Assembly: GCF_000165505.1 (NCBI RefSeq)
Contig: NC_014632.1
Coordinates: 1,116,001 to 1,180,000, forward strand
Reading direction: 5' to 3'
Origin: Ilyobacter polytropus DSM 2926
GTDB taxonomy: Bacteria; Fusobacteriota; Fusobacteriia; Fusobacteriales; Fusobacteriaceae
DNA: 64,000 nucleotides
Position numbers and translations under genes: made by a program. Under the pieces are notes generated by a model. The model saw nothing but the letters and a program-made list of their open reading frames with translations, made no database searches and was not told the DNA's origin. Positions 24,495 to 41,133 of this stretch are shown piece by piece (the first letter of the stretch is position 1; the number at the start of each line of letters is the position of its first letter).

Positions 24495-24699
24495 ACAAAA
24501 AATTTTCTATTTTATTTATAATTCTTTCCCAAAAAGAAAAGAGAAGAATAAATCCAACTAAAAAAGATATTACTATAGAAAAAATAATTGGATGTTTTTC
24601 GAATAAATTTTTATTTTCTACTTTTTTATTATCATAAATTCCAAAATTTGAGTTATTTATTTTATTATTATTTCCAACATTTATTTTAATTTTCTTCAT
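24493..24699 (-). CDS. Small membrane protein paired with AbiTii
   Basis: This 68-residue protein starts MKKIKINVGNNNKINNSNFG and then has one hydrophobic helix (about residues 36-57, HPIIFSIVISFLVGFILLFSF). The first block repeats almost exactly the C-terminus of the AbiTii protein upstream (INITMGNNNRITGSNFG). The genes overlap by 14 bases, so they are translated together. A soluble AbiTii protein plus a one-helix membrane partner is compatible with a sensor plus membrane-damaging effector of an abortive infection system, but this is inference. I know of no named family. Confidence 0.72.
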   Translation of the reverse strand: MKKIKINVGNNNKINNSNFGIYDNKKVENKNLFEKHPIIFSIVISFLVGFILLFSFWERIINKIENFL

Positions 24700-25330
24700 T
24701 TTTAGTTACTCCAAAATTTGAGCCCGTTATCCTATTGTTATTTCCCATCGTTATATTAATAATGGTTTTACCTATTTCTGTTTTTTCTGTATCACTTATG
24801 TCTAAAAAAATATCATAATCATTTAGTGCTCCATATTTTTTTTCAAGCTCCAAAATTATACTTAAAAGTCTATTTTTTACACAACTTTTAATTTTTGAGC
24901 ATGTTCCTAAAGGCATTGCCCCATATGCTTGAGTAACCAGTAATTTACGACTATACCCTTCTCCTAAACGATGTGTTAAAAAACTATTATAGGATATACA
25001 TGTATCTTTTTCATCATAAGATAAACTATTTATACTATCTGTTATGTTATGATATAACACAGCATTCAGTTCTTTTTTATCTAAATGCCCTATAGAAGCT
25101 ATAGCTTTATTAAGACTCCAAACTCCATCAGTAGCACTTATATGGGGAGTTAACATTACTTTTCTATATTCTGGAACCCCATCACCTTCTTTGTATCCTT
25201 CTATTTCTGAATCTATCCATTTTATAATTTCATCATTTTCCAATGAAAAAAGAATCGTTTTTAACCTAAATAAAATATTCTCTAGTTCACATTCATTTTC
25301 TAATAAATCTAAAAGCAGTTTACTTTTCAT
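24686..25330 (-). CDS. AbiTii-domain abortive infection protein
   Basis: The 214-residue protein has the AbiTii domain at its N-terminus (about residues 1-165): LLDLLENECELENILFRLKTI, then DEIIKWIDSEIEGYKEGDGVPEYRKVML, the signature WI..E..GY...VPEYR. The domain is named after AbiT-ii of lactococcal phage resistance. The C-terminus, INITMGNNNRITGSNFGVTK, is shared with the small membrane protein that follows, suggesting the two interact or assemble through this motif. It comes four bases after the nuclease-like gene, in the same transcript as the restriction genes. Confidence 0.82.
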   Translation of the reverse strand: MKSKLLLDLLENECELENILFRLKTILFSLENDEIIKWIDSEIEGYKEGDGVPEYRKVMLTPHISATDGVWSLNKAIASIGHLDKKELNAVLYHNITDSINSLSYDEKDTCISYNSFLTHRLGEGYSRKLLVTQAYGAMPLGTCSKIKSCVKNRLLSIILELEKKYGALNDYDIFLDISDTEKTEIGKTIINITMGNNNRITGSNFGVTKNEEN

Positions 25331-25334
25331 TATT

Positions 25335-26225
25335 CTATTCTCCTATACCCTCAAAAGAAACCCTAATAACCTCCTTGGCCAGCTCCATATCCTCTCTACC
25401 ATTAATTGAAAACTCAAAGTTCCCCGTCCCAAAGTGGCCGATATTTGTCACATCTCTTCCAACATCCTTATACTTATCTATATCTTCTGATGTAAACTTC
25501 AGATACAGCAGCATTCTCTTTTTAAAAGTTTCTATACACATAAAATTCTTTGCCACCTTATAAGCTATATAAAGCTTCTTTGGTGCCTCTTCCACTGACT
25601 CGTCAAGTCCAAAAGTGTACTCTCTTAGCTCTTCCAAAAGTTCTTTTAAAATCGGTGTTCCCAATTTATTAAAATGCCTTTCATAAGTCCAAACAGGGGA
25701 ATTATCATCTTTAGTTATTGACCCAGGAGTAGGAGTTACAATCTTGCTAGATATCTCTTCCAGGCTAAACATCCCGTTTTCATAGTTCTTATACTTCCAT
25801 AGCTCTATCGGTGCATTCATCATCTCTGCTGCATGGAGGTCATACTTCTTGTAGTCTGGAGCAATACAGATAACACGTATTGCACTCCAGTCTACCTTAG
25901 TTTCTCCAAGACTTTTATTTACAGCTATTTGAAAATCTCCATGATGATCCTTAAGCCACGAAAGATAGTAAAGAGACTGAGTGAGTAAGCTTGAAGATTC
26001 CATCTTCTTATACTCTATAATTACAGGGTTATTGTCCTCGGAAATAGCTATTGTATCAATACGTCCGTTATGGACACTCCCTGTGGAAAATTCACTGGCC
26101 ACAAACTTACAGCTGAATATCTCTTCCAGGTTATTCTCAATTAAATTTTGAAGTTCTTTTTCAAGGTTAAAATTCCTCTGTTTTACAAGGTCTAATACCT
26201 CTCCATTTCTATTAAATAAAGGCAT
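25335..26225 (-). CDS. PD-(D/E)XK-like protein with DUF5655-type C-terminus
   Basis: The 296-residue protein has an N-terminal nuclease-like domain: NLIENNLEEIF, GRIDTIAISEDNNPVIIEYKK (GRID...EYKK matches the D...ExK core) around residues 50-75, then QSLYYLSWLKDH. The C-terminal half (about 180-296) with LREYTFGLDESVEEAPKKLYIAYK and GHFGTGNFEF resembles DUF5655. Such proteins are often encoded beside type I restriction systems; the role is unclear, perhaps DNA cleavage or recognition. It is 18 bases from hsdR, same strand. Confidence 0.78.
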   Translation of the reverse strand: MPLFNRNGEVLDLVKQRNFNLEKELQNLIENNLEEIFSCKFVASEFSTGSVHNGRIDTIAISEDNNPVIIEYKKMESSSLLTQSLYYLSWLKDHHGDFQIAVNKSLGETKVDWSAIRVICIAPDYKKYDLHAAEMMNAPIELWKYKNYENGMFSLEEISSKIVTPTPGSITKDDNSPVWTYERHFNKLGTPILKELLEELREYTFGLDESVEEAPKKLYIAYKVAKNFMCIETFKKRMLLYLKFTSEDIDKYKDVGRDVTNIGHFGTGNFEFSINGREDMELAKEVIRVSFEGIGE

Positions 26226-26243
26226 AATTTTTCTCCTTAAAAT

Positions 26244-29200
26244 TTATATTATTTCCTTAATAGATGAATTTTTTATATCCCATAAAATGTCAAATACAAA
26301 TTCTAAATATCTATTTTTGAAATCGGGGTCACTTACAAACTTTTTATAAATCCCTGTATTAGTACTCATTAAATCAAACATTAAATCCTGTACTTTTTCA
26401 TCAGATGTAATTTTTGCATTATCTTTATCAGAATTTATAATCGATTTCAAAATTTTAATATTAGCTTTCATTTTATCAGGAATTTTTTCAATAAGGATCT
26501 TTTCCGCTTCTTCCTTATCTACATCATCTCCCCAATTAATATCGCCAAACCTTCGATTAAATTCAGATATTATATGTGATAAGGTATCATAATGTTTTTC
26601 AGCTATACCGCTACTAGTACTTACTGGGATAGGTTCAATTATTCCCTCTTCTTCTTCTAAAGATATTTTAGTTGTTCCGATTCTATTTATTCTATAACTA
26701 TCCATATCGACTTCATTTAATATATTTTCATTTATCTCTTCATCTTGAATTTTTATTTTTGTAATTAAATGTTTTAAAAATAGCCATAATTTTTCCCAAT
26801 AGGGTACGTCATATTCTATAATTTTTGATAAATAGCTGTATGTTCTCACAAATGATTTTGCATTTGATTTAAACTTTATCTGTTCTTCTTTTTCTAAATG
26901 TGTATCAAAAATTTCTTTACAGTTATTTATTATCGGTTCTAAAATATTTCTTTCAGCATTTGTGTAATAAAGTTTAAAAAATTCTTCAACTTCTTCTTCA
27001 CTATAAACTTGCATGTTGTCTAATGAGTCTTGCAAATCATTTAATTTATTAACATCTGTCTCTTCCGACAAAATAGTTGTTGTGTAGTATGGCTCAAAAG
27101 CTTTTTTTACTGATTCTATGTCATTATAAAAGTCGAGGACCATGGTATCTGTTTTATGAGGTTTGAATGCCCTATTTAGCCTTGATAAAGTTTGTACAGC
27201 TTGAACGCCAGATAATTCTTTATCAACATACATAGTATGTAATAATGGCTGATCAAAACCTGTTTGAAATTTATCAGCAACAATTAAAAATTTATACTCA
27301 TTTTTTCTAAATTGTTTTACGATATCATTATCACCATCAGAAAAATTATTCATATCAGATTCTGTCATTTCTAAGCCTGTTTTATAATGTGCTTTTTTTC
27401 CTGAAAATGCAACGATTGCTTTATATGGTAGGCCTGTCTCTTTCAGATATTTATCAAATGCATCTTTATACTTCATTGCACTCTCTATAGATTTTGTAAC
27501 TACCATTGACTTTGCTTGATAATTTATTAAATGCTTTACGTTTTTATTAAAATGATCTACCATAATTTTTGCTTTTTCTGCTATTGCGAGCTCATTGCCT
27601 TCAACAAAATTCTTTATTTTTTTGTTTGCCTGTTTTATTTCATATTCTTTTTCCTCAGGTACATTATTATCTGCTTTTATCTTATAATATGATTTATAAG
27701 TTGTATAGTTCTGTAAAACATCTAAAATGTATTCCTCTTCTATAGCTTGTTTCATTGAGTAATTATGAAATGGCTTAAAGGTTCCATCTTCTTGTTTCGT
27801 TCCAAAAGTTTCAAGAGTTTTATTTTTGGGTGTTGCTGTAAACGCAAAATAACTTGCGTTATCTAACATTTTTTTTGTTTTAATTAAATAATTTACTAAA
27901 TCTTCTGTATCTATATTTCCTTCTTCATCCATTTTAAGTTTAGTAAAATCAGTATTTGAAAAAATTGCATTCATACTAGCAGAAGATATTCCATTTTGAC
28001 CACTATGTGCTTCATCAATGATAAATGCTATATTTTTTGTTTCCATTTCTTGTACTGTTTTCAATACATAAGGGAAAGTTTGAACAGTACAAATAATAAT
28101 TTTTTTATTATTTTCAAGAGCCAATCTCATATGAGATGTTTTACTCATTGATGTCTCTGTTGGGTCTAGTTTCTTTATGTCAGTTGAATTTCCTGTTATG
28201 GCTTCGACTATATTTTTTACTTGTGCAAAGTTTTTAATGTTTTCCCTTATTTGTTTATCAAGTATAGTTTTATCAGTTACTACAACTACGCTATCAAAAA
28301 TTGGGCTTATATTATTTTTATCATACAATCCTATCAATTGATGAGCAAGCCAAGTTATAGAGTTCGATTTTCCTGATCCGGCAGAATGTTGCACTAGATA
28401 TTTTATCCCAATCCCTTTTTCTTTAGAGTCTTCTAATAATTTCCTTACAACTTTTAGTTGATGATATCTTGGGAAAATTAACTTAGATTTATCTGATTTT
28501 ACCTTTGGTTTTTCTAAATGTACAAATTTTTCAATTATATTTGAAAGACTACTCCTTGTTAAAATATCTCTCCAAATATAAGATGTCTTTAAACCTAAAG
28601 GGTTTATAGGGTTCCCTGCTCCATATGGAGGAAATGGCTCACCATTATTAAGACCTTTATTAAATGGCATAAAAAATGTTTTAGATTTATCTAACTTTGT
28701 TGTCATATATGCAAGATCTGTATCTATCGCAAAATGAACTAGGCAACGAGCAAAATTAAAAATTTTATCATTAGGGTCCCTATCTTTTTTATATTGTTTT
28801 ATTGCATTTTTTACTGCTTGATGCGTGAAAGCATTTTTAAGTTCCATTGTAATAATTGGAAACCCGTTTATAAAGATAACTAAATCAATTCTATTTTTAT
28901 TATTACCTGTATAAACCAATTCTTGTGTGACAGAAAAAATGTTTGTCTCATACCTTAAGTGATCTTTTTTATTATGATTAGAATTTGGTTGTGGATAAAA
29001 GAGATATATTGTCTTGTCGAAATGTTTTACTCCCTTTCTAAGAACTTCGATAATTCCTTCTTTTTTTATTTTTAAGTCTAATCTATTTAAAAAAGCGTCT
29101 TCACCTTTCTTTATAATAAAATCATAAGAATCAGGTTGACTAATTTCTATAAATTCAAAAAGATCTTTTTTATTTAGACAGAAATCTCTATCAAAATCAT

Positions 29201-29294
29201 TTGAATGTGTTTCGATATACCCCTCTTTTCCAACAAGCTCTTTTACTATGAGTTTTTGAAATCCTTTTTCTGAGGTATCAGTAAATTCAAGCAT
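26244..29294 (-). CDS. hsdR: Type I restriction enzyme, R subunit
   Basis: AAAGGAGG seven bases before the ATG at 29292-29294 sets the start, giving 1016 residues beginning MLEFTDTSEKGFQ; the frame to 29327 is not needed. The N-terminal nuclease domain contains DLVIFINGFPIITMELKNA (D...ELK). The translocase follows, with Walker A GSGKS at 306-310, DEAH at 427-430, SAT-like FAFTATP, and QTLSRLNRAF helicase motif VI. The C-terminus is the helical HsdM-binding part. It cuts DNA far from unmethylated recognition sites after translocation. All motifs look intact. Confidence 0.94.
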   Translation of the reverse strand: MLEFTDTSEKGFQKLIVKELVGKEGYIETHSNDFDRDFCLNKKDLFEFIEISQPDSYDFIIKKGEDAFLNRLDLKIKKEGIIEVLRKGVKHFDKTIYLFYPQPNSNHNKKDHLRYETNIFSVTQELVYTGNNKNRIDLVIFINGFPIITMELKNAFTHQAVKNAIKQYKKDRDPNDKIFNFARCLVHFAIDTDLAYMTTKLDKSKTFFMPFNKGLNNGEPFPPYGAGNPINPLGLKTSYIWRDILTRSSLSNIIEKFVHLEKPKVKSDKSKLIFPRYHQLKVVRKLLEDSKEKGIGIKYLVQHSAGSGKSNSITWLAHQLIGLYDKNNISPIFDSVVVVTDKTILDKQIRENIKNFAQVKNIVEAITGNSTDIKKLDPTETSMSKTSHMRLALENNKKIIICTVQTFPYVLKTVQEMETKNIAFIIDEAHSGQNGISSASMNAIFSNTDFTKLKMDEEGNIDTEDLVNYLIKTKKMLDNASYFAFTATPKNKTLETFGTKQEDGTFKPFHNYSMKQAIEEEYILDVLQNYTTYKSYYKIKADNNVPEEKEYEIKQANKKIKNFVEGNELAIAEKAKIMVDHFNKNVKHLINYQAKSMVVTKSIESAMKYKDAFDKYLKETGLPYKAIVAFSGKKAHYKTGLEMTESDMNNFSDGDNDIVKQFRKNEYKFLIVADKFQTGFDQPLLHTMYVDKELSGVQAVQTLSRLNRAFKPHKTDTMVLDFYNDIESVKKAFEPYYTTTILSEETDVNKLNDLQDSLDNMQVYSEEEVEEFFKLYYTNAERNILEPIINNCKEIFDTHLEKEEQIKFKSNAKSFVRTYSYLSKIIEYDVPYWEKLWLFLKHLITKIKIQDEEINENILNEVDMDSYRINRIGTTKISLEEEEGIIEPIPVSTSSGIAEKHYDTLSHIISEFNRRFGDINWGDDVDKEEAEKILIEKIPDKMKANIKILKSIINSDKDNAKITSDEKVQDLMFDLMSTNTGIYKKFVSDPDFKNRYLEFVFDILWDIKNSSIKEII

Positions 29295-29319
29295 TTTTCT
29301 CCCTCCTTTAAAATGCTTT

Positions 29320-30621
29320 TTATTCAACGCATATTTGACCTGTAACTACATTATAAATCAAGCTTTCCATATAGTCTTTTGCAAGTTCTATTTCTTTTTC
29401 TGTTTTCAATATTGTTGTATCAATTTTTGTATTTTGTTTTTCAATATAATTTACAATTTGTTTTTGTTCTTTAAGGTCTGGATAGGGTAAATACATTTGC
29501 CTTAACCATTCTCTTTGTAATTCTGTCTGATTAGTTGAACCTTGACCAAAATATCCATCTATTAAATTATAATTAACATAATAAAAATAATATAAGTATT
29601 CAGGAATAAATCTTTTTTTACTATCTCTTATAATTGTAACGTGACTATCAGCTAAATAAACCCCTTCTTTTTCAGTAAATATGGCCACTTTACCAAGAAC
29701 TCCACCACCTGTAGAGGCTAATAAAATATCTTTATATTTTAATTTTCCTTTTTCTTTTTCAATTTTATAAGTTTTATGAAATCTAATACTCGACTCGTCA
29801 AAATATCCTTTACTAAATGTTGCTTGATTAACAACTTTATAGTCACTTTTTTCAGTATAATTAGGAGTTGTTCCTCTATTTACAAAATCAGACATTTCTT
29901 TTAATTTTTTTATTTCCCAATGTTTAGGTACTTTTCCGAGCCACTCAACACCACTATCTTGCATCTTAACAAGGGTGTTTAAACCTTTTGTCACAACTTC
30001 ATTTATAATCGTTTTTTTCTGCTCTTTCAAAAGTTCTATCATTTTTTGCTGTTTTTCAATAAATTTATTTGACTGTTTTTCTTTTGTTTCTAAATATTCT
30101 ACAATTTTATCTTGTATTTCAATATGTGGAACAATTGAGTACATTCTTTTAAAATCTACATATCTCAAATTTAGTTGGTCATCACAAAGACCGTATGAGT
30201 ATCTTCTTGCATAATTACTATAGTACTCTGTCCTATAAAGATAGTGAAAGTATTTTGAATTTATTTTCAACTTTGATTTTAAGACAATATATGCCGGACT
30301 TACAATTCCCCTATATTGACTATAGCCAACTGAGCCTTGCCACATTCTCATCTTGTTATAAGCGATATCACCAATTTTAACTAGCTTATAATTTGATTTA
30401 TCTTCATTCGAAATATCTTTTTTATTTTCAATATCGCTTTGTTTTATAATCCCTTTGCTTATTGTTACCGATAAAAGTTCCTCATTATTATTTTTCTTTT
30501 TTATTCTTTCATCAAACAATGCGATATTCGGTAAAATATTCCAATCTTGAGGGATCTCTTTTACATATTCATACCAAGGTATATTTTTATAATTAAGATA
30601 ACTTTTTTTCTCTTTAATCAT
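29320..30621 (-). CDS. hsdS: Type I restriction enzyme, specificity subunit
   Basis: The 433-residue protein has two target-recognition domains, each followed by a helical spacer. TRD1 (about 1-170) includes KMRMWQGSVGYSQYRGIVSPAY; the central helix is FIEKQQKMIELLKEQKKTIINEVVTKGL; TRD2 (about 222-385) begins HWEIKKLKEMSDFVNRGTTP; the second helix closes the protein. It defines the DNA sequence for both methylation and cleavage. It overlaps the methylase gene by 8 bases. No inverted duplicate hsdS fragments are seen, so no phase variation. Confidence 0.93.
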   Translation of the reverse strand: MIKEKKSYLNYKNIPWYEYVKEIPQDWNILPNIALFDERIKKKNNNEELLSVTISKGIIKQSDIENKKDISNEDKSNYKLVKIGDIAYNKMRMWQGSVGYSQYRGIVSPAYIVLKSKLKINSKYFHYLYRTEYYSNYARRYSYGLCDDQLNLRYVDFKRMYSIVPHIEIQDKIVEYLETKEKQSNKFIEKQQKMIELLKEQKKTIINEVVTKGLNTLVKMQDSGVEWLGKVPKHWEIKKLKEMSDFVNRGTTPNYTEKSDYKVVNQATFSKGYFDESSIRFHKTYKIEKEKGKLKYKDILLASTGGGVLGKVAIFTEKEGVYLADSHVTIIRDSKKRFIPEYLYYFYYVNYNLIDGYFGQGSTNQTELQREWLRQMYLPYPDLKEQKQIVNYIEKQNTKIDTTILKTEKEIELAKDYMESLIYNVVTGQICVE

Positions 30622-32836
30622 TTAAAAATTCCTCCATAATTCCTTCGGTTTCTTCTTGAAGTTTTTCTATTTCACTCGCAATCGCCTCAAGACTTCTAGG
30701 AGGAGTAAAATTATAAAAATATCTTGTGAATGAAATGCTGTATCCTTTTTGTGTTTTACTTTCATCTATCCAAGCATCGGGAATATAATTTAAAACTTCT
30801 CTTTCAAAATATTCATGGATATCTTCATTTAATGGAACACTTTCACTGTCTCTTAGATCGCTGTCAGCTTCGTAAATAATAGTCCCATCTTTCTCTACTT
30901 TTTTTATGACAGGCTCTCCCTCTTCATCTTTCCAGGTTATCGCATTAAAAATTAAATCGAGGTCTTTTTTACCAATTTTTATATCCAATTTGTTTAATGT
31001 ATCACCAATCAAATCTTTAAAAGTATTAAAATTATCAAACTCTATTTCACCAATTTCTTCTAAAAGTTGCTCTGTTATTTTCATAAGCTCCTCTTGAGAT
31101 TTCCAAACATTTACATCAAAAATTTTCTTTTTGTTTGCAGGGGATATTTTTATTTCATTTTTTTCAATCCAATTTTCTATATCTTTTTTAACATCTTTTA
31201 AACCATCATAGACTTTATCACCATATTTTCTATAAATCCATTTTGCTTCATCAATGATTGTTTTTTCATATCGAAGACTTTCTATCGCTTCATTGGTTAT
31301 TTTGGCTTTTAATCTCAAAGGTCTTTCAACAATTATTTTATTGTATCCAAAGTCTTCATTGTCAAATATTTTTGAAGTCTCTGTTTTTTTAAAATCCAGA
31401 TATATTTTAGTAATACTATCTATCTGAGTTTTAGTAAGTTCACAATTTTTTTGACCAAGATTTTTTCTCAATGGTGTGTAAATATCAATTGCATTTATAA
31501 GCTGAACCTTTCCCTTTCTTCTCTCCTCTTTTCTGTTAGAAAGTATCCAAATATATGTTGGAATACCCGTGTTATAGAATATATTTGTAGACAGTGCTAT
31601 TATGCATTCAAGCAGGTCATTTTCTAATATCATTTTCCTTATTTCACTTTCACCTTGACCGGCATCTCCTGTAAATAAAGAAGAACCATTATGAACAGAA
31701 GCTATCCTACTTCCAAGCTCTGTATCATTTTTCATTTTCGAAATCATATTTACTAAAAATAATAATTGACCATCAGATATAGTTGGAAGACCAACTTTAA
31801 AACGTGGATCTTTAATAATTTCTTTTCCTTTTTTTCCTCTATTCTCAACAATAGCATCTACATCATTTTTCCAACTTTTACCGTATGGTGGGTTAGATAG
31901 AATAAAGTCAAATTTATGCCCTTTAAACTCATCATTTGATAAGGTTGAGCCATAACCTATATTTGATGCTTTTTCTCCTTTTATTAGCATATCTCCTGTA
32001 CATATTGCCCAGGTCTCTGGATTAACTTCTTGTCCAAATAGTGAAAAAATACATTTATTATCTGTAATTTTTAATGCAAAATCTTCTGCTTCCGTGAGCA
32101 TACCACCACTACCACATGCAGGATCATATATTGAAAATCTTGCTCCTTCACGCTCTTTTAATATGTCTTTGATTGGTTCAAAAATTATGTGTGTCATTAA
32201 TTTTATTATTTCTCTAGGGGTAAAATGCTCTCCAGCTTCTTCATTATTCTCTTCATTAAATTTTCTGATTAATTCTTCAAATACATACCCCATTCCTAAG
32301 TTAGTAAGTGCAGGTAAAATTTCACCTTTAGAATTTTTTACTTCATAAGGACTTAAATTTATACTTCCTGAAGTAAGTTTATCAATTAAACCAAAAGTAA
32401 TCCCAGCATCTTGCATTGTTTCGAGCTGATTACGAACTTTAAACTTACTTATAATTTCTTGGATATTAGGACTAAATCCATCCAAGTATTCTTCTAGATT
32501 ACTGTCTATTTTGTCTGGATCAGATAGTAAAGAAACAAAAGGATATTCTGAATCCTTTAAACTATTTTTACCCATTGTAAATGGCGAAGTATTATAAAAA
32601 GGGTATCCTGTAATTTTTTCGAGTCCTGATTTATCATTTATATTATTTTCTTCAAAAAATTTATTCATTTCCAATACTTTTTCTTTTGATTCTTCTAATA
32701 ATATATCTATTCTTCTTAAAACAGTGAATGGCAAAATAACATCTCTATATTTACCTCTTACAAAAATATCTCTTAAAACATCATCTGCTATTGACCAAAT
32801 ATAACTTACTATTTTATTATGAACTTTATGATCCAT
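30614..32836 (-). CDS. hsdM: Internal start giving stand-alone HsdM
   Basis: Codon 257 of the fusion gene is ATG (32834-32836), and a perfect AAGGAG (32846-32851) lies nine bases upstream. Starting here yields a 740-residue protein beginning MDHKVHNKIVSYIWSIADDV, exactly where ordinary HsdM proteins begin. The cell may therefore make both the fusion and a free methylase, or the site is a relic from before two genes fused. The site is seen; its use is not proven. Confidence 0.6.
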   Translation of the reverse strand: MDHKVHNKIVSYIWSIADDVLRDIFVRGKYRDVILPFTVLRRIDILLEESKEKVLEMNKFFEENNINDKSGLEKITGYPFYNTSPFTMGKNSLKDSEYPFVSLLSDPDKIDSNLEEYLDGFSPNIQEIISKFKVRNQLETMQDAGITFGLIDKLTSGSINLSPYEVKNSKGEILPALTNLGMGYVFEELIRKFNEENNEEAGEHFTPREIIKLMTHIIFEPIKDILKEREGARFSIYDPACGSGGMLTEAEDFALKITDNKCIFSLFGQEVNPETWAICTGDMLIKGEKASNIGYGSTLSNDEFKGHKFDFILSNPPYGKSWKNDVDAIVENRGKKGKEIIKDPRFKVGLPTISDGQLLFLVNMISKMKNDTELGSRIASVHNGSSLFTGDAGQGESEIRKMILENDLLECIIALSTNIFYNTGIPTYIWILSNRKEERRKGKVQLINAIDIYTPLRKNLGQKNCELTKTQIDSITKIYLDFKKTETSKIFDNEDFGYNKIIVERPLRLKAKITNEAIESLRYEKTIIDEAKWIYRKYGDKVYDGLKDVKKDIENWIEKNEIKISPANKKKIFDVNVWKSQEELMKITEQLLEEIGEIEFDNFNTFKDLIGDTLNKLDIKIGKKDLDLIFNAITWKDEEGEPVIKKVEKDGTIIYEADSDLRDSESVPLNEDIHEYFEREVLNYIPDAWIDESKTQKGYSISFTRYFYNFTPPRSLEAIASEIEKLQEETEGIMEEFLND

Positions 32837-33604
32837 TCTTATTATCTCCTTATTGTTTATCTTTGGTTCACTTTTTAAACTTACTTGAGACAAAGATAAC
32901 TGTTTATTTTTATTTTCTTTTTCAAAGTTTTTGCTGAAATTATCTCTATTTAATTCATAAAAAGGCGCTACACTTTTTTTATATTCATTAATACTCTTCA
33001 TAGCATTATCTATAATGTTTAATTTTTTTAAAAGAACGAATAATGCTGCCGCTCTAGCTTGACAATTTATTGACTTTTCAGGATTAAATTCGATATCTGT
33101 AAATGAATCATATTTTATAATTTCTTGAGCTAATTCTTTATTTCTATATAGTGAATTTATATAAAGCCAGTCATAAAAAAAAGTTTTAGGTTCTAAACTC
33201 CATTCATTTTTATTGTATTCAAATTTAACAAGTGGGCCACTATTCTTTATCCTAGGATCTTTTTTAGCTTCTCTAGAAGTTTTATGAAATAAATCAATGT
33301 ATGGTCCACCTTTTTTAAAAACTTTGCTTCCTTGGAATGCACATTCTACAGAAAATGCTTTACCTTTTTTTGTTTGAATCATTAAATTAAAAGCACTTAA
33401 TTTAATCCCTAAGTTCTCTAATGATTTTGAAGAGATTTCTAAAATGTTAGCGTTAGGAAATTCTAATAAAAAATTTTCATGTAAACTAATAATACTTTTT
33501 TGTTTTTGCCCTATGCTATATCCAGGATACCATTTGAATTCAACCATTTTTTCCTTTATCCGATTATTTACAAAATCTATATAGTAAGCTGGTCTTTTAG
33601 CCAT
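30614..33604 (-). CDS. hsdM: NADAR (DarT1-antitoxin type) domain fused to HsdM methylase
   Basis: This 996-residue protein is about twice the usual HsdM length. Residues 1 to about 215 match the DarT1-associated NADAR antitoxin family (formerly DUF6977): FKWYPGYSIGQKQKSI (23-38), LGIKLSAFNL, VECAFQGSKVF (86-96), REAKKDPR (111-118), FYDWLYINSL, NPEKSINCQARAAALF. NADAR proteins remove ADP-ribose added by DarT. After a polar linker (about 216-256) a complete HsdM begins at Met257, with DPACGSGG at 494-501 and NPPYG at 571-575. Directly upstream is a DarT-like toxin gene, so toxin and antitoxin remain neighbours while the antitoxin is joined to the methylase. AAGGAG precedes the start. The fusion is visible in one uninterrupted frame; its function is inferred. 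Confidence 0.88.
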   Translation of the reverse strand: MAKRPAYYIDFVNNRIKEKMVEFKWYPGYSIGQKQKSIISLHENFLLEFPNANILEISSKSLENLGIKLSAFNLMIQTKKGKAFSVECAFQGSKVFKKGGPYIDLFHKTSREAKKDPRIKNSGPLVKFEYNKNEWSLEPKTFFYDWLYINSLYRNKELAQEIIKYDSFTDIEFNPEKSINCQARAAALFVLLKKLNIIDNAMKSINEYKKSVAPFYELNRDNFSKNFEKENKNKQLSLSQVSLKSEPKINNKEIIRMDHKVHNKIVSYIWSIADDVLRDIFVRGKYRDVILPFTVLRRIDILLEESKEKVLEMNKFFEENNINDKSGLEKITGYPFYNTSPFTMGKNSLKDSEYPFVSLLSDPDKIDSNLEEYLDGFSPNIQEIISKFKVRNQLETMQDAGITFGLIDKLTSGSINLSPYEVKNSKGEILPALTNLGMGYVFEELIRKFNEENNEEAGEHFTPREIIKLMTHIIFEPIKDILKEREGARFSIYDPACGSGGMLTEAEDFALKITDNKCIFSLFGQEVNPETWAICTGDMLIKGEKASNIGYGSTLSNDEFKGHKFDFILSNPPYGKSWKNDVDAIVENRGKKGKEIIKDPRFKVGLPTISDGQLLFLVNMISKMKNDTELGSRIASVHNGSSLFTGDAGQGESEIRKMILENDLLECIIALSTNIFYNTGIPTYIWILSNRKEERRKGKVQLINAIDIYTPLRKNLGQKNCELTKTQIDSITKIYLDFKKTETSKIFDNEDFGYNKIIVERPLRLKAKITNEAIESLRYEKTIIDEAKWIYRKYGDKVYDGLKDVKKDIENWIEKNEIKISPANKKKIFDVNVWKSQEELMKITEQLLEEIGEIEFDNFNTFKDLIGDTLNKLDIKIGKKDLDLIFNAITWKDEEGEPVIKKVEKDGTIIYEADSDLRDSESVPLNEDIHEYFEREVLNYIPDAWIDESKTQKGYSISFTRYFYNFTPPRSLEAIASEIEKLQEETEGIMEEFLND

Positions 33605-33615
33605 ATTTTCACTCC

Positions 33616-34221
33616 TTAACCAAATCTATTTATAATACTCTTAATATTATCTTCTTTTATTTCCACTCCATACCCATTTAAATCTTTTAAATCACTACCT
33701 GTCTCCACAAATATACAGACAAAGTAGTCCTTTTCAACTATATCTTGAACCATTACTTCACTTTGCCTAGCATCTTTATATTCTTGAGATTGTGTGTCGT
33801 AATTTCTTTCAGAAAAAACCTTTTCCCAATTAATATGATCTCCTATTTCATTTTGTTTATAGTAGATTGCATCATTTGCAACAGCATTCTTTGTAGTAAA
33901 TAATATATCTCTTTTTTTGTTCAACAATTCACAGTTTACTATAATTACTGCTGGATTTTTTAAATTATTATAAAAAACAGCAGTTGGTATCATATCATAC
34001 CAAGTAGTATATGCAAGTCTGACATAAGCATCTAAACCTTTACAACGATCCAAACTCCTTGAAGCTTCACTTGTCATAAATTTAGGACATACATTTTCTA
34101 CTTCTAACTTCCTTAAAGATATAAGTCCCCCAGTCTCCAAAATAGATTTTATATTATCAAATTCTGTGATATGTAATAAATTAAAATTATTTTCTCTTAA
34201 AAAATTATACACTCTATTCAT
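33616..34221 (-). CDS. darT: DarT-like DNA ADP-ribosyltransferase toxin
   Basis: GAGGAG lies four to six bases before the ATG at 34219-34221, preferred over the GTG at 34233; this gives 201 residues. The sequence follows the DarT (DUF4433) pattern: LLHIT with His17 for NAD binding, NIKSILETGGLIS, LDAYVRLAYTTWYDMIP, FTTKNAVAND, and ARQSEVMV with Glu155 where DarT has its catalytic glutamate. DarT attaches ADP-ribose to single-stranded DNA; DarT1-type enzymes pair with NADAR antitoxins, and the next gene encodes such a domain. It starts 15 bases after the repressor gene and is probably cotranscribed with it. Family assignment is firm by motif; the modified base is unknown. Confidence 0.84.
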   Translation of the reverse strand: MNRVYNFLRENNFNLLHITEFDNIKSILETGGLISLRKLEVENVCPKFMTSEASRSLDRCKGLDAYVRLAYTTWYDMIPTAVFYNNLKNPAVIIVNCELLNKKRDILFTTKNAVANDAIYYKQNEIGDHINWEKVFSERNYDTQSQEYKDARQSEVMVQDIVEKDYFVCIFVETGSDLKDLNGYGVEIKEDNIKSIINRFG

Positions 34222-34236
34222 CTCTCTCCTCACTTT

Positions 34237-34917
34237 CTAAAATCTCTTTTCAGAAATAACCTTGAGTACTCGCCCCTCTATTTTCAGACCCTCTATTTGC
34301 TCATCCATGATATATTTATCAGGATATTTAGCATTATAACTTTTAAGTACCACTATGTTTTCTGCTGGACATTCTATTTTTTTTATTAAAGTTTCATCTC
34401 CATAGGTTACTACATATACTTTCCCGGAAATATAGTCATTTTCCATTGGATCTACAAGTGCAAAATCCCCTTCATTAATTTCCGGTGTCATAGAATCCCC
34501 TGCTACTTCTACTAAAAAAGAGTTTTTGCTAAATCCGTTTGCGATGACCCTTTTGGTATAAATGATGTTGTCTAAATTTATATACCCGTCACCAGCAGCA
34601 GCTTTACCATATACAGGTAATTCACAGATTGATAAATCTACGATTCTTCCATTGCTCTTTATTTCCCCTTCTTTTTCCAAATACCCTACTATTCTATATA
34701 ACTCCTTATAATCTTTACCTAGAGCCTTTGCCAGCTGTTTTAGAAAAAATGGGTTTATCTTTAAAATTTTTCCACTTTCCAGTCTGGAAAGAATTGTCTT
34801 TTGTAATCCGGCTTTTAAGGCCAATTGATTTAAACCTATTCCTCTAGCTTCTCTATTTTGTTTTATGTATAATGCCAGTTTATTTCTATTTTCTTCTTCT
34901 ACAATAAATTCAGACAT
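34237..34917 (-). CDS. CI-type phage repressor, HTH plus S24 peptidase
   Basis: The start is the ATG at 34915-34917 with AGGGAG upstream, giving 226 residues beginning MSEFIVEEENRN; the long upstream extension would run through the promoter region. Residues 15-70 are a Cro/CI helix-turn-helix (GLNQLALKAGLQKTILSRLESGK). Residues 100-226 are an S24/LexA-like domain with the cleavage-type site around GKAAAGDG, Ser in VAGDSMTPEI, and Lys in ETLIKKIE. It should maintain lysogeny and be inactivated by RecA during DNA damage. It heads the transcript that continues into darT and the restriction genes. Confidence 0.92.
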   Translation of the reverse strand: MSEFIVEEENRNKLALYIKQNREARGIGLNQLALKAGLQKTILSRLESGKILKINPFFLKQLAKALGKDYKELYRIVGYLEKEGEIKSNGRIVDLSICELPVYGKAAAGDGYINLDNIIYTKRVIANGFSKNSFLVEVAGDSMTPEINEGDFALVDPMENDYISGKVYVVTYGDETLIKKIECPAENIVVLKSYNAKYPDKYIMDEQIEGLKIEGRVLKVISEKRF

Positions 34918-39747: not shown

Positions 39748-41133
39748 CTATCCCTCCCCAAATCCATCCAAATTACTGATATACATTTTATAGATATTAA
39801 AATTTTTTATTGGTTTTCCTTTAAAAGTACCGTCAACTATATCAAAATATATAACTTTTTCACTGTCATGAAGTAAAATCCAAGGTTCAAAATCATATTG
39901 TCCCGCAGTTGAGTCTATTATTAAACTCGCTGAAACTTTTCCAAGAGCGTAATTTTCAGGAATGAATAACTCGGTGACCCAAATAAATTTAGGCATCTCA
40001 ACTTTTAAGATTTGGTCTTTTAAATCACTAGTTATTTCTGAATTACTTCTTATAAACTTTTTGTAAGATGAGCTAGATGTTAAAAATATTCTTACTACCA
40101 CTTTTTCAGGTAAGTTTAAAACTTTTTGCTCAAGCTTTAAAAAAGTTTTAACTTTTTCTCTAACAATTTTAGACGTTAAGAACATCTTTTCCGATAATGG
40201 AACAATAAAAGAGTCTATATTATCAAAATTATGATATTTCGTTGACCCATCCAATGTTCTAGTGATTTGCTTGTAAGGCAAATAATTATCATCTATTGCA
40301 ATAAAACTATTTATGAAATCTGAAATAAAAATTATATCTTCAGAACTTTGACGGAGTAAAGTTAAATCAACTTCTCCATGACCTATTAAGGTTAAGGCAT
40401 GATTTTGATTAACTGATGCAATAACAGGCAAACCAGATTCCATATAAGAATAAAGTTCATTAATAAATAAGTTCTGTTGATCTTTTATTTTAGCCACCAA
40501 TATTGGAGTAAATTCATTTTTTTCTAAAACTCTTGCTATATCATAAATAGTTAGACCGCTAAAAGGAGTTCTACGTATGCCAATTTCTTCTACCTGAGAA
40601 GCTATGTCTGCAATCAGTCTTTCTCTATATTTATATTTACTAGAAAAGTATCTTAATACTGTCCACAAGGCTGCATGGGCACAGACAGAAATTTCAGTAT
40701 CCTGACCAATAGCAGGAAAAGCATTTACAGATAACTCTTCACCTAAAATGTTTACTTTGAAGTTATTAGACATAATAAAAATATTTTTAGTGTCATTAAA
40801 TAAACGCGGATCCAACTTTGTACGGGTTTTAGAATGAAATCCTAAAGGTCTTAATACTATAAAACCTGCATATTCCTCATTATGTAAAAAAAAATGAAGT
40901 TTTATACAATTTTTTTTAATTTCTCTATGCTTTAATGAATAATAATTACTATAAGTGCTTATGAAGTCTTCATCAAAAAATGGAAATTCAATTTTTATAT
41001 TTTTACAATTTAATCCGATTCTATTAATAATTTCGTGATACAATGAATCATTTTTAAAATAAGGTGGTATTTTTTTAAAAAAATTGTCATAGTCTTCTAT
41101 TTTTTCTATATTTATTGTAGCAACATTTAACAT
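39748..41133 (-). CDS. Papain-like (C39-type) cysteine peptidase
   Basis: The 461-residue protein has a candidate catalytic Cys151 in SVCAHAALW, His245 in NQNHALTLIGHG and an acidic residue in the following SFIAIDD, in papain/C39 order; Gln144 could form the oxyanion hole. The N-terminal 140 residues and C-terminal 170 residues are not recognised. No signal peptide or membrane segment is present, so it acts in the cytoplasm. It has its own promoter with a palindrome, and a coupled small gene downstream. It may be prophage-edge cargo, possibly for defence. Confidence 0.7.
   Translation of the reverse strand: MLNVATINIEKIEDYDNFFKKIPPYFKNDSLYHEIINRIGLNCKNIKIEFPFFDEDFISTYSNYYSLKHREIKKNCIKLHFFLHNEEYAGFIVLRPLGFHSKTRTKLDPRLFNDTKNIFIMSNNFKVNILGEELSVNAFPAIGQDTEISVCAHAALWTVLRYFSSKYKYRERLIADIASQVEEIGIRRTPFSGLTIYDIARVLEKNEFTPILVAKIKDQQNLFINELYSYMESGLPVIASVNQNHALTLIGHGEVDLTLLRQSSEDIIFISDFINSFIAIDDNYLPYKQITRTLDGSTKYHNFDNIDSFIVPLSEKMFLTSKIVREKVKTFLKLEQKVLNLPEKVVVRIFLTSSSSYKKFIRSNSEITSDLKDQILKVEMPKFIWVTELFIPENYALGKVSASLIIDSTAGQYDFEPWILLHDSEKVIYFDIVDGTFKGKPIKNFNIYKMYISNLDGFGEG

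Follow-up and report, generated by a model that had tools for sequence, protein, structure and literature searches.

A NADAR::HsdM fusion gene in a prophage-like region of Ilyobacter polytropus with a predicted internal start at the apparent original start of hsdM

A type I restriction operon with a fused antitoxin and methylase gene

The window analysed here is a stretch of 64,000 nucleotides (positions 1,116,001-1,180,000) of the larger chromosome of the 3,132,314-bp genome of Ilyobacter polytropus DSM 2926, a finished genome with 91x 454 coverage and 124.8x Illumina polishing and a stated error rate of <1 in 100,000 (PMC3035301). From about position 300 to 39,500, the window resembles a contractile-tail prophage with genes for terminase, portal, sheath, tape measure, a CI-like repressor and an integrase. 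On the minus strand, the repressor gene is followed by darT, a NADAR::hsdM fusion gene, hsdS, hsdR, a PDC-S18 candidate identified by PADLOC and an AbiTii-like gene (Table 1), and all three components of a type I restriction-modification system, HsdM, HsdS and HsdR, are encoded within this one operon. For hsdR, the ATG at 29294, which is preceded by AGGAGG, was a far better start than the TTG at 29327 of the longest ORF (29294-29327, minus strand). The defence block from darT to the AbiTii-like gene (window 24686-34917, minus strand) lies directly downstream of the repressor gene in the same orientation and may be expressed during lysogeny. An Rfam search of the region gave no match. Further along (39748-41133, minus strand), a 461-aa protein without a Pfam match contains a stretch judged by eye to resemble a C39/papain-like peptidase.

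Table 1. Features of the defence operon (window positions).
Feature	Position	Strand	Evidence or remark
CI-like S24 prophage repressor	34237..34917	-	directly upstream of darT, same strand
DarT1-type ADP-ribosyltransferase toxin	33616..34221	-	PF14487 DarT, 5.4e-32 (match 33616-34218); start picked by RBS
Codon 1 leader with its own AAGGAG	33605..33626	-	7 nt ahead of ATG at 33604
NADAR::HsdM fusion ORF, 996 aa, 115 kDa	30614..33604	-	Pfam NADAR-DarT1, HsdM_N, N6_Mtase; PADLOC MTase_I
NADAR-DarT1 antitoxin domain, codons 1-211	32972..33604	-	Pfam; E87, K94, K114, D170 kept
Linker, codons 212-256	32837..32971	-	QLSL at 235-238; codon 240 CAA; low AF2 pLDDT
Shine-Dalgarno AAGGAG of internal start	32846..32851	-	16S 3' end GGATCACCTCCTTTC
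Internal ATG, codon 257, beginning of HsdM proper	32834..32836	-	in frame in ORF 33604-30614
HsdM from internal start, 740 aa, 85.2 kDa (predicted product)	30614..32836	-	free-HsdM start alignment
HsdS	29320..30621	-	Pfam, PADLOC
HsdR	26244..29294	-	Pfam, PADLOC; start ATG 29294

The N-terminal domain of the fusion belongs to the DarT1-associated NADAR family, as Pfam NADAR-DarT1 (PF22397) matched residues 2-211 with 8.8e-90 and 300 bits against a cut-off of 27; the closest solved structure is 8bat. NADAR frees DNA guanine of ADP-ribose and rescues cells intoxicated by DarT1 (PMC11543638). In agreement with the described DarT1-NADAR (DarTG1) pairs, a DarT-family gene lies directly upstream of the fusion ORF on the same strand, and the catalytic and essential residues E88, K95, K115 and D171 of the E. 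coli C7 NADAR (PMC11543638) have their counterparts in E87, K94, K114 and D170, which were matched by a one-residue offset with C7 itself outside the alignment and are invariant across 15 aligned sequences. Whereas the DarT1-associated NADARs are mostly single free-standing domains (Schuller et al. 2023, PMC11543638), that of I. polytropus is joined to HsdM. We found no second NADAR in the same genome, and the fusion therefore carries the only evident antitoxin to DarT1. The HsdM part (residues 257-996) is complete and was recognised by PADLOC as MTase_I at residues 258-993. It shares the HsdM_N and N6_Mtase domains and the downstream hsdS and hsdR genes with the type I methylases EcoR124I M and EcoKI M (PDB 7bst, 2y7c), but differs from them by a 256-residue N-terminal extension containing the antitoxin enzyme. 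In an AF2 model of the fusion, the NADAR domain (pLDDT >90 over most of residues 1-210) and the catalytic core were confident, while pLDDT fell below 50 from residue 226 and residues 226-441 were modelled poorly, probably because of a mixed alignment; the model informs little on the placement of NADAR relative to HsdM.

The predicted ribosome-binding site at codon 257

At the junction of both parts, the minus strand reads AACAATAAGGAGATAATAAGAATGGATCAT, i.e. an AAGGAG, a 9-nt spacer and an ATG. The preliminary description had reported this motif nine bases ahead of an in-frame ATG at codon 257, and its coordinates (32851-32846 and 32836-32834) proved exact; the expected 114- and 85-kDa forms closely match the computed masses of 115.1 kDa (from codon 1) and 85.2 kDa (from codon 257). 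For calibration, we sampled 20 stretches of the I. polytropus genome plus the window, about 460 kb in total, with 253 putative start ATGs and 1,878 internal in-frame ATGs. An AAGGAG was present 4-12 nt ahead of 38 of these putative starts (15%) and of seven internal ATGs (0.37%, with the codon-257 site counted). All ATGs were then scored with our own simplified version of the E. coli-trained RBS calculator, which considers the anti-Shine-Dalgarno hybrid, spacing, start codon and mRNA folding and leaves out ribosomes already translating from codon 1 across the codon-257 site. The anti-Shine-Dalgarno sequence was taken from the genome's own 16S 3' end (ACCUCCUUU), which is identical in all eight copies. 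With this setting, the codon-257 site ranked first among the 1,878 internal ATGs and outscored about 80% of the putative starts, and its top rank held when we switched to the genome's own 16S 3' end. Judged by Shine-Dalgarno sequence and spacing alone it ranked ninth, since low mRNA structure adds to the Shine-Dalgarno effect in the full score. It was also the best site in the operon (-5.7, compared to -4.8 for HsdS, -2.8 for HsdR, -1.3 for codon 1 and -0.9 for DarT), and the remaining 15 in-frame ATGs of the fusion scored +1.3 or worse with the anti-Shine-Dalgarno sequence used earlier, which was not the genome's own. The AAGGAG of codon 1 is similar to that of codon 257, yet it sits in more structured RNA. 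With an in-frame Shine-Dalgarno sequence and start codon at a domain boundary, stronger than background, the codon-257 site shows the sequence features expected of a gene within a gene.

The position of the internal ATG was compared with the starts of free-standing HsdM proteins. Among the viral-contig relatives alignable to the N terminus (65 loci, one being a second copy of the locus L132), 46 have their start codon exactly at the codon-257 column, and all but one of the others start within 15 codons of it. This bears out the earlier statement that the ATG lies exactly where normal HsdM proteins start. The free HsdM of L132, which is 66% identical to the HsdM of the fusion and carries MNQKVHNQIVSF, likewise starts at this column, and the HsdM of a Fusobacteriales relative (L154/L005) begins with MDHTVHNRIV and has a GGAGG in its leader. 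These alignments strongly support the codon-257 site as the original translation start of hsdM.

The linker between both domains also points to two formerly separate genes. Free NADAR-DarT1 proteins, of which we collected about 110 non-redundant ones, are 214-247 aa long with the exception of two fusions (L123 and L197, see below), and many of them end in tails resembling Q-L-[SD]-[LI]-F. The linker holds QLSL at residues 235-238, within the range of positions 218-240 spanned by the tail motifs of the free proteins, and the QLSL is followed by the codons TCT CAA, the latter of which (codon 240) is one transition away from TAA. Because this tail is kept and free HsdM proteins start at codon 257, we infer that the linker consists of the former C-terminal tail of NADAR and the former leader of hsdM, joined through stop loss. 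A frameshift was ruled out, as many stops interrupt the two other frames of the linker and the tail motif of NADAR is read in the same frame as HsdM. The genes darT1, NADAR, hsdM, hsdS and hsdR would once have been ordinary neighbours in the prophage operon until the stop codon of NADAR was lost, most simply by a change from TAA to CAA at codon 240, and ribosomes coming from codon 1 would since have read through the former 51-nt leader into hsdM to produce NADAR::HsdM.

One or two proteins from the fused gene

We consider it probable, at roughly 0.7, that the gene yields two proteins, a 115-kDa NADAR::HsdM and an 85-kDa HsdM, and that the old start still works. Shine-Dalgarno sequence, spacing, ATG and accessibility of the codon-257 site are all undamaged, and ribosomes would still initiate at such an intact and unstructured site. 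Codon 1 is presumably in use as well, because no NADAR was found in the genome outside the fusion, which retains its catalytic residues, and because the DarT encoded upstream appears complete; ribosomes arriving from codon 1 pass over the internal site and may reduce its use. Type I methylases have the composition M2S1, so that the two products would assemble into complexes in which neither, one or both HsdM subunits bear a NADAR domain on a flexible linker. The fused NADAR would carry its activity to the methylase complex, and free HsdM would provide a methylase without NADAR. The preliminary description had offered two products or a fossil start as alternatives. The fossil origin stood up, given the starts of free HsdM proteins and the NADAR tail in the linker; the either/or did not, because an origin as the old start and the present use for two products are compatible. 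Its further proposal, that guarded and unguarded methylase are made in a fixed ratio, did not fit what is known of NADAR, which is described as an ADP-ribosyl-guanine DNA hydrolase (PMC11543638) and not as a methylase guard, and any role of such a ratio is speculation.

The strongest competing explanation is that the codon-257 site is a fossil only. The fusion would then be recent or near-neutral, the old start would be kept by inertia and give little product, and the fusion itself would serve as the working HsdM, which the long flexible linker would allow. That a single fusion was found in the collections searched fits a recent event, and in a recent fusion a perfect site would be displayed irrespective of its usefulness, with only one fused locus at hand. 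We nevertheless regard this explanation as unlikely, although worth serious consideration, because the site outscores most genuine starts in the genome and every other start in the operon, and neither its sequence nor the mRNA structure has weakened it.

More doubtful is the proposal that the antitoxin enzyme occurs only within the restriction methylase, with the internal start supplying untagged methylase and the assembly or loss of M2S setting the activity of DarT1. Even less probable, and an addition to the two-product reading rather than an alternative to it, is a functional sensor, in which the ratio of NADAR::HsdM to HsdM ties the control of DarT1 to the restriction complex. By analogy with PrrC, which guards EcoprrI (PMC12707154), a phage anti-restriction protein that blocks or degrades the methylase would also disable NADAR and let DarT1 act; a PrrC-like guard role of NADAR::HsdM is speculation. 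A sensor would be in line with the recurrence of DarT modules in type I restriction-modification operons (PMC5179494, PMC12255303; loci L058 and L027 here) and with the fusion being the only NADAR in the genome. Against it, the lack of a second fusion in the collections searched gives no sign of selection for the joined form, the published rescue by NADAR is enzymatic, and the antitoxin would be made from the lower-scoring codon 1.

It is highly improbable that a sequencing error or a lesion of one strain feigns the fusion, with the NADAR stop intact in the real genome or species and two separate genes present. The genes would be split by one base at codon 240, where CAA stands for TAA, and a second sequence of the locus was sought and not found; however, the genome is finished at the coverage and error rate given above, and stops occur throughout the linker in the two other frames. 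Finally, a chance occurrence of AAGGAG ahead of a Met codon in an AT-rich and purine-rich gene, conceivable insofar as AAGGAG encodes the common pair Lys-Glu and precedes six other internal ATGs in the 460 kb, is ruled out by the 0.37% background per internal ATG and the alignment of codon 257 with the exact start of free HsdM proteins.

If both starts work, one gene provides an antitoxin-methylase fusion as well as plain methylase, and a toxin-antitoxin pair acting by DNA ADP-ribosylation is physically coupled to a restriction system, a link suggested until now only by shared operons (PMC5179494). The gene would then represent a fusion caught before the loss of its downstream start, and a possible route to genes within genes.

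Known systems, other fusions and free-standing NADARs

Precedents exist both for DarT modules within type I restriction operons and for internal starts of defence genes; what is new is the fusion with a retained start. The I. polytropus operon resembles the known cases (PMC5179494; the EPEC RptR island, PMC12255303) in encoding an ADP-ribosylation toxin-antitoxin module alongside hsdM, hsdS and hsdR. In RptR, however, DarTG2 lies between hsdS and hsdR as separate genes, whereas here DarT1-NADAR comes first and antitoxin and methylase share one ORF. Internal starts are established for McrB-S (PMC12707154) as well as for Rpn-S and Cas11d (PMC10327210). The pairs McrB-L/McrB-S, Rpn-L/Rpn-S and Cas10d/Cas11d resemble our case in that a C-terminal product arises from an in-frame start within a defence gene; they were shown by experiment, whereas the I. 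polytropus product is predicted and its internal start would have been inherited through gene fusion.

We did not find a second NADAR-HsdM fusion when we compared approximately 110 other NADAR-DarT1 proteins (non-redundant) and searched about 1,650 additional genomes, nor in plasmids, phage records, viral contigs and the top 80 out of at least 550 genome-contig relatives, beyond which further fusions may exist. A search for sister loci with HsdS as bait also yielded none. Scanning the viral contigs with a single NADAR sequence gave no match, while an alignment-based scan did yield NADARs. The published NADAR descriptions that we compared mention neither a DarT1-type NADAR joined to HsdM nor the C-terminal motif treated below.

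Two other fusions came up. In a viral contig (L123:6001-7566), a NADAR-DarT1 downstream of a DarT-like gene is joined to a DUF5677 domain, and in L197 (727-2109, minus strand) a NADAR is joined to an apparent macrodomain, assigned by eye, combining two kinds of ADP-ribose-removing domains. Neither junction contains an internal start site of the AAGGAG/ATG type, that of L197 having an in-frame ATG without a Shine-Dalgarno sequence, so that NADAR fusions do not in general carry such a site.

Separate genes were observed in L058 (hsdM-hsdS-darT-NADAR) and L027 (hsdS-hsdR-YgjP-darT-NADAR-SIR2). On a Deinococcus plasmid (L020), DarT, NADAR, a protein with an HsdR N-domain and BREX PglZ adjoin each other, and an IS3 element separates DarT from NADAR. 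A decayed NADAR with several stops is present in another genome of the family to which I. polytropus belongs (L006:1501-1785).

A motif of the Q-x-x-[LIMF]-[FLWIDS] type was present in the last 14 residues of 63 of the 110 non-redundant NADAR-DarT1 proteins (L011-L131), compared to about 10 expected by shuffling. Its QL[SD]LF form resembles the bacterial sliding-clamp binding motif, and the tail may keep the antitoxin at the replication fork.
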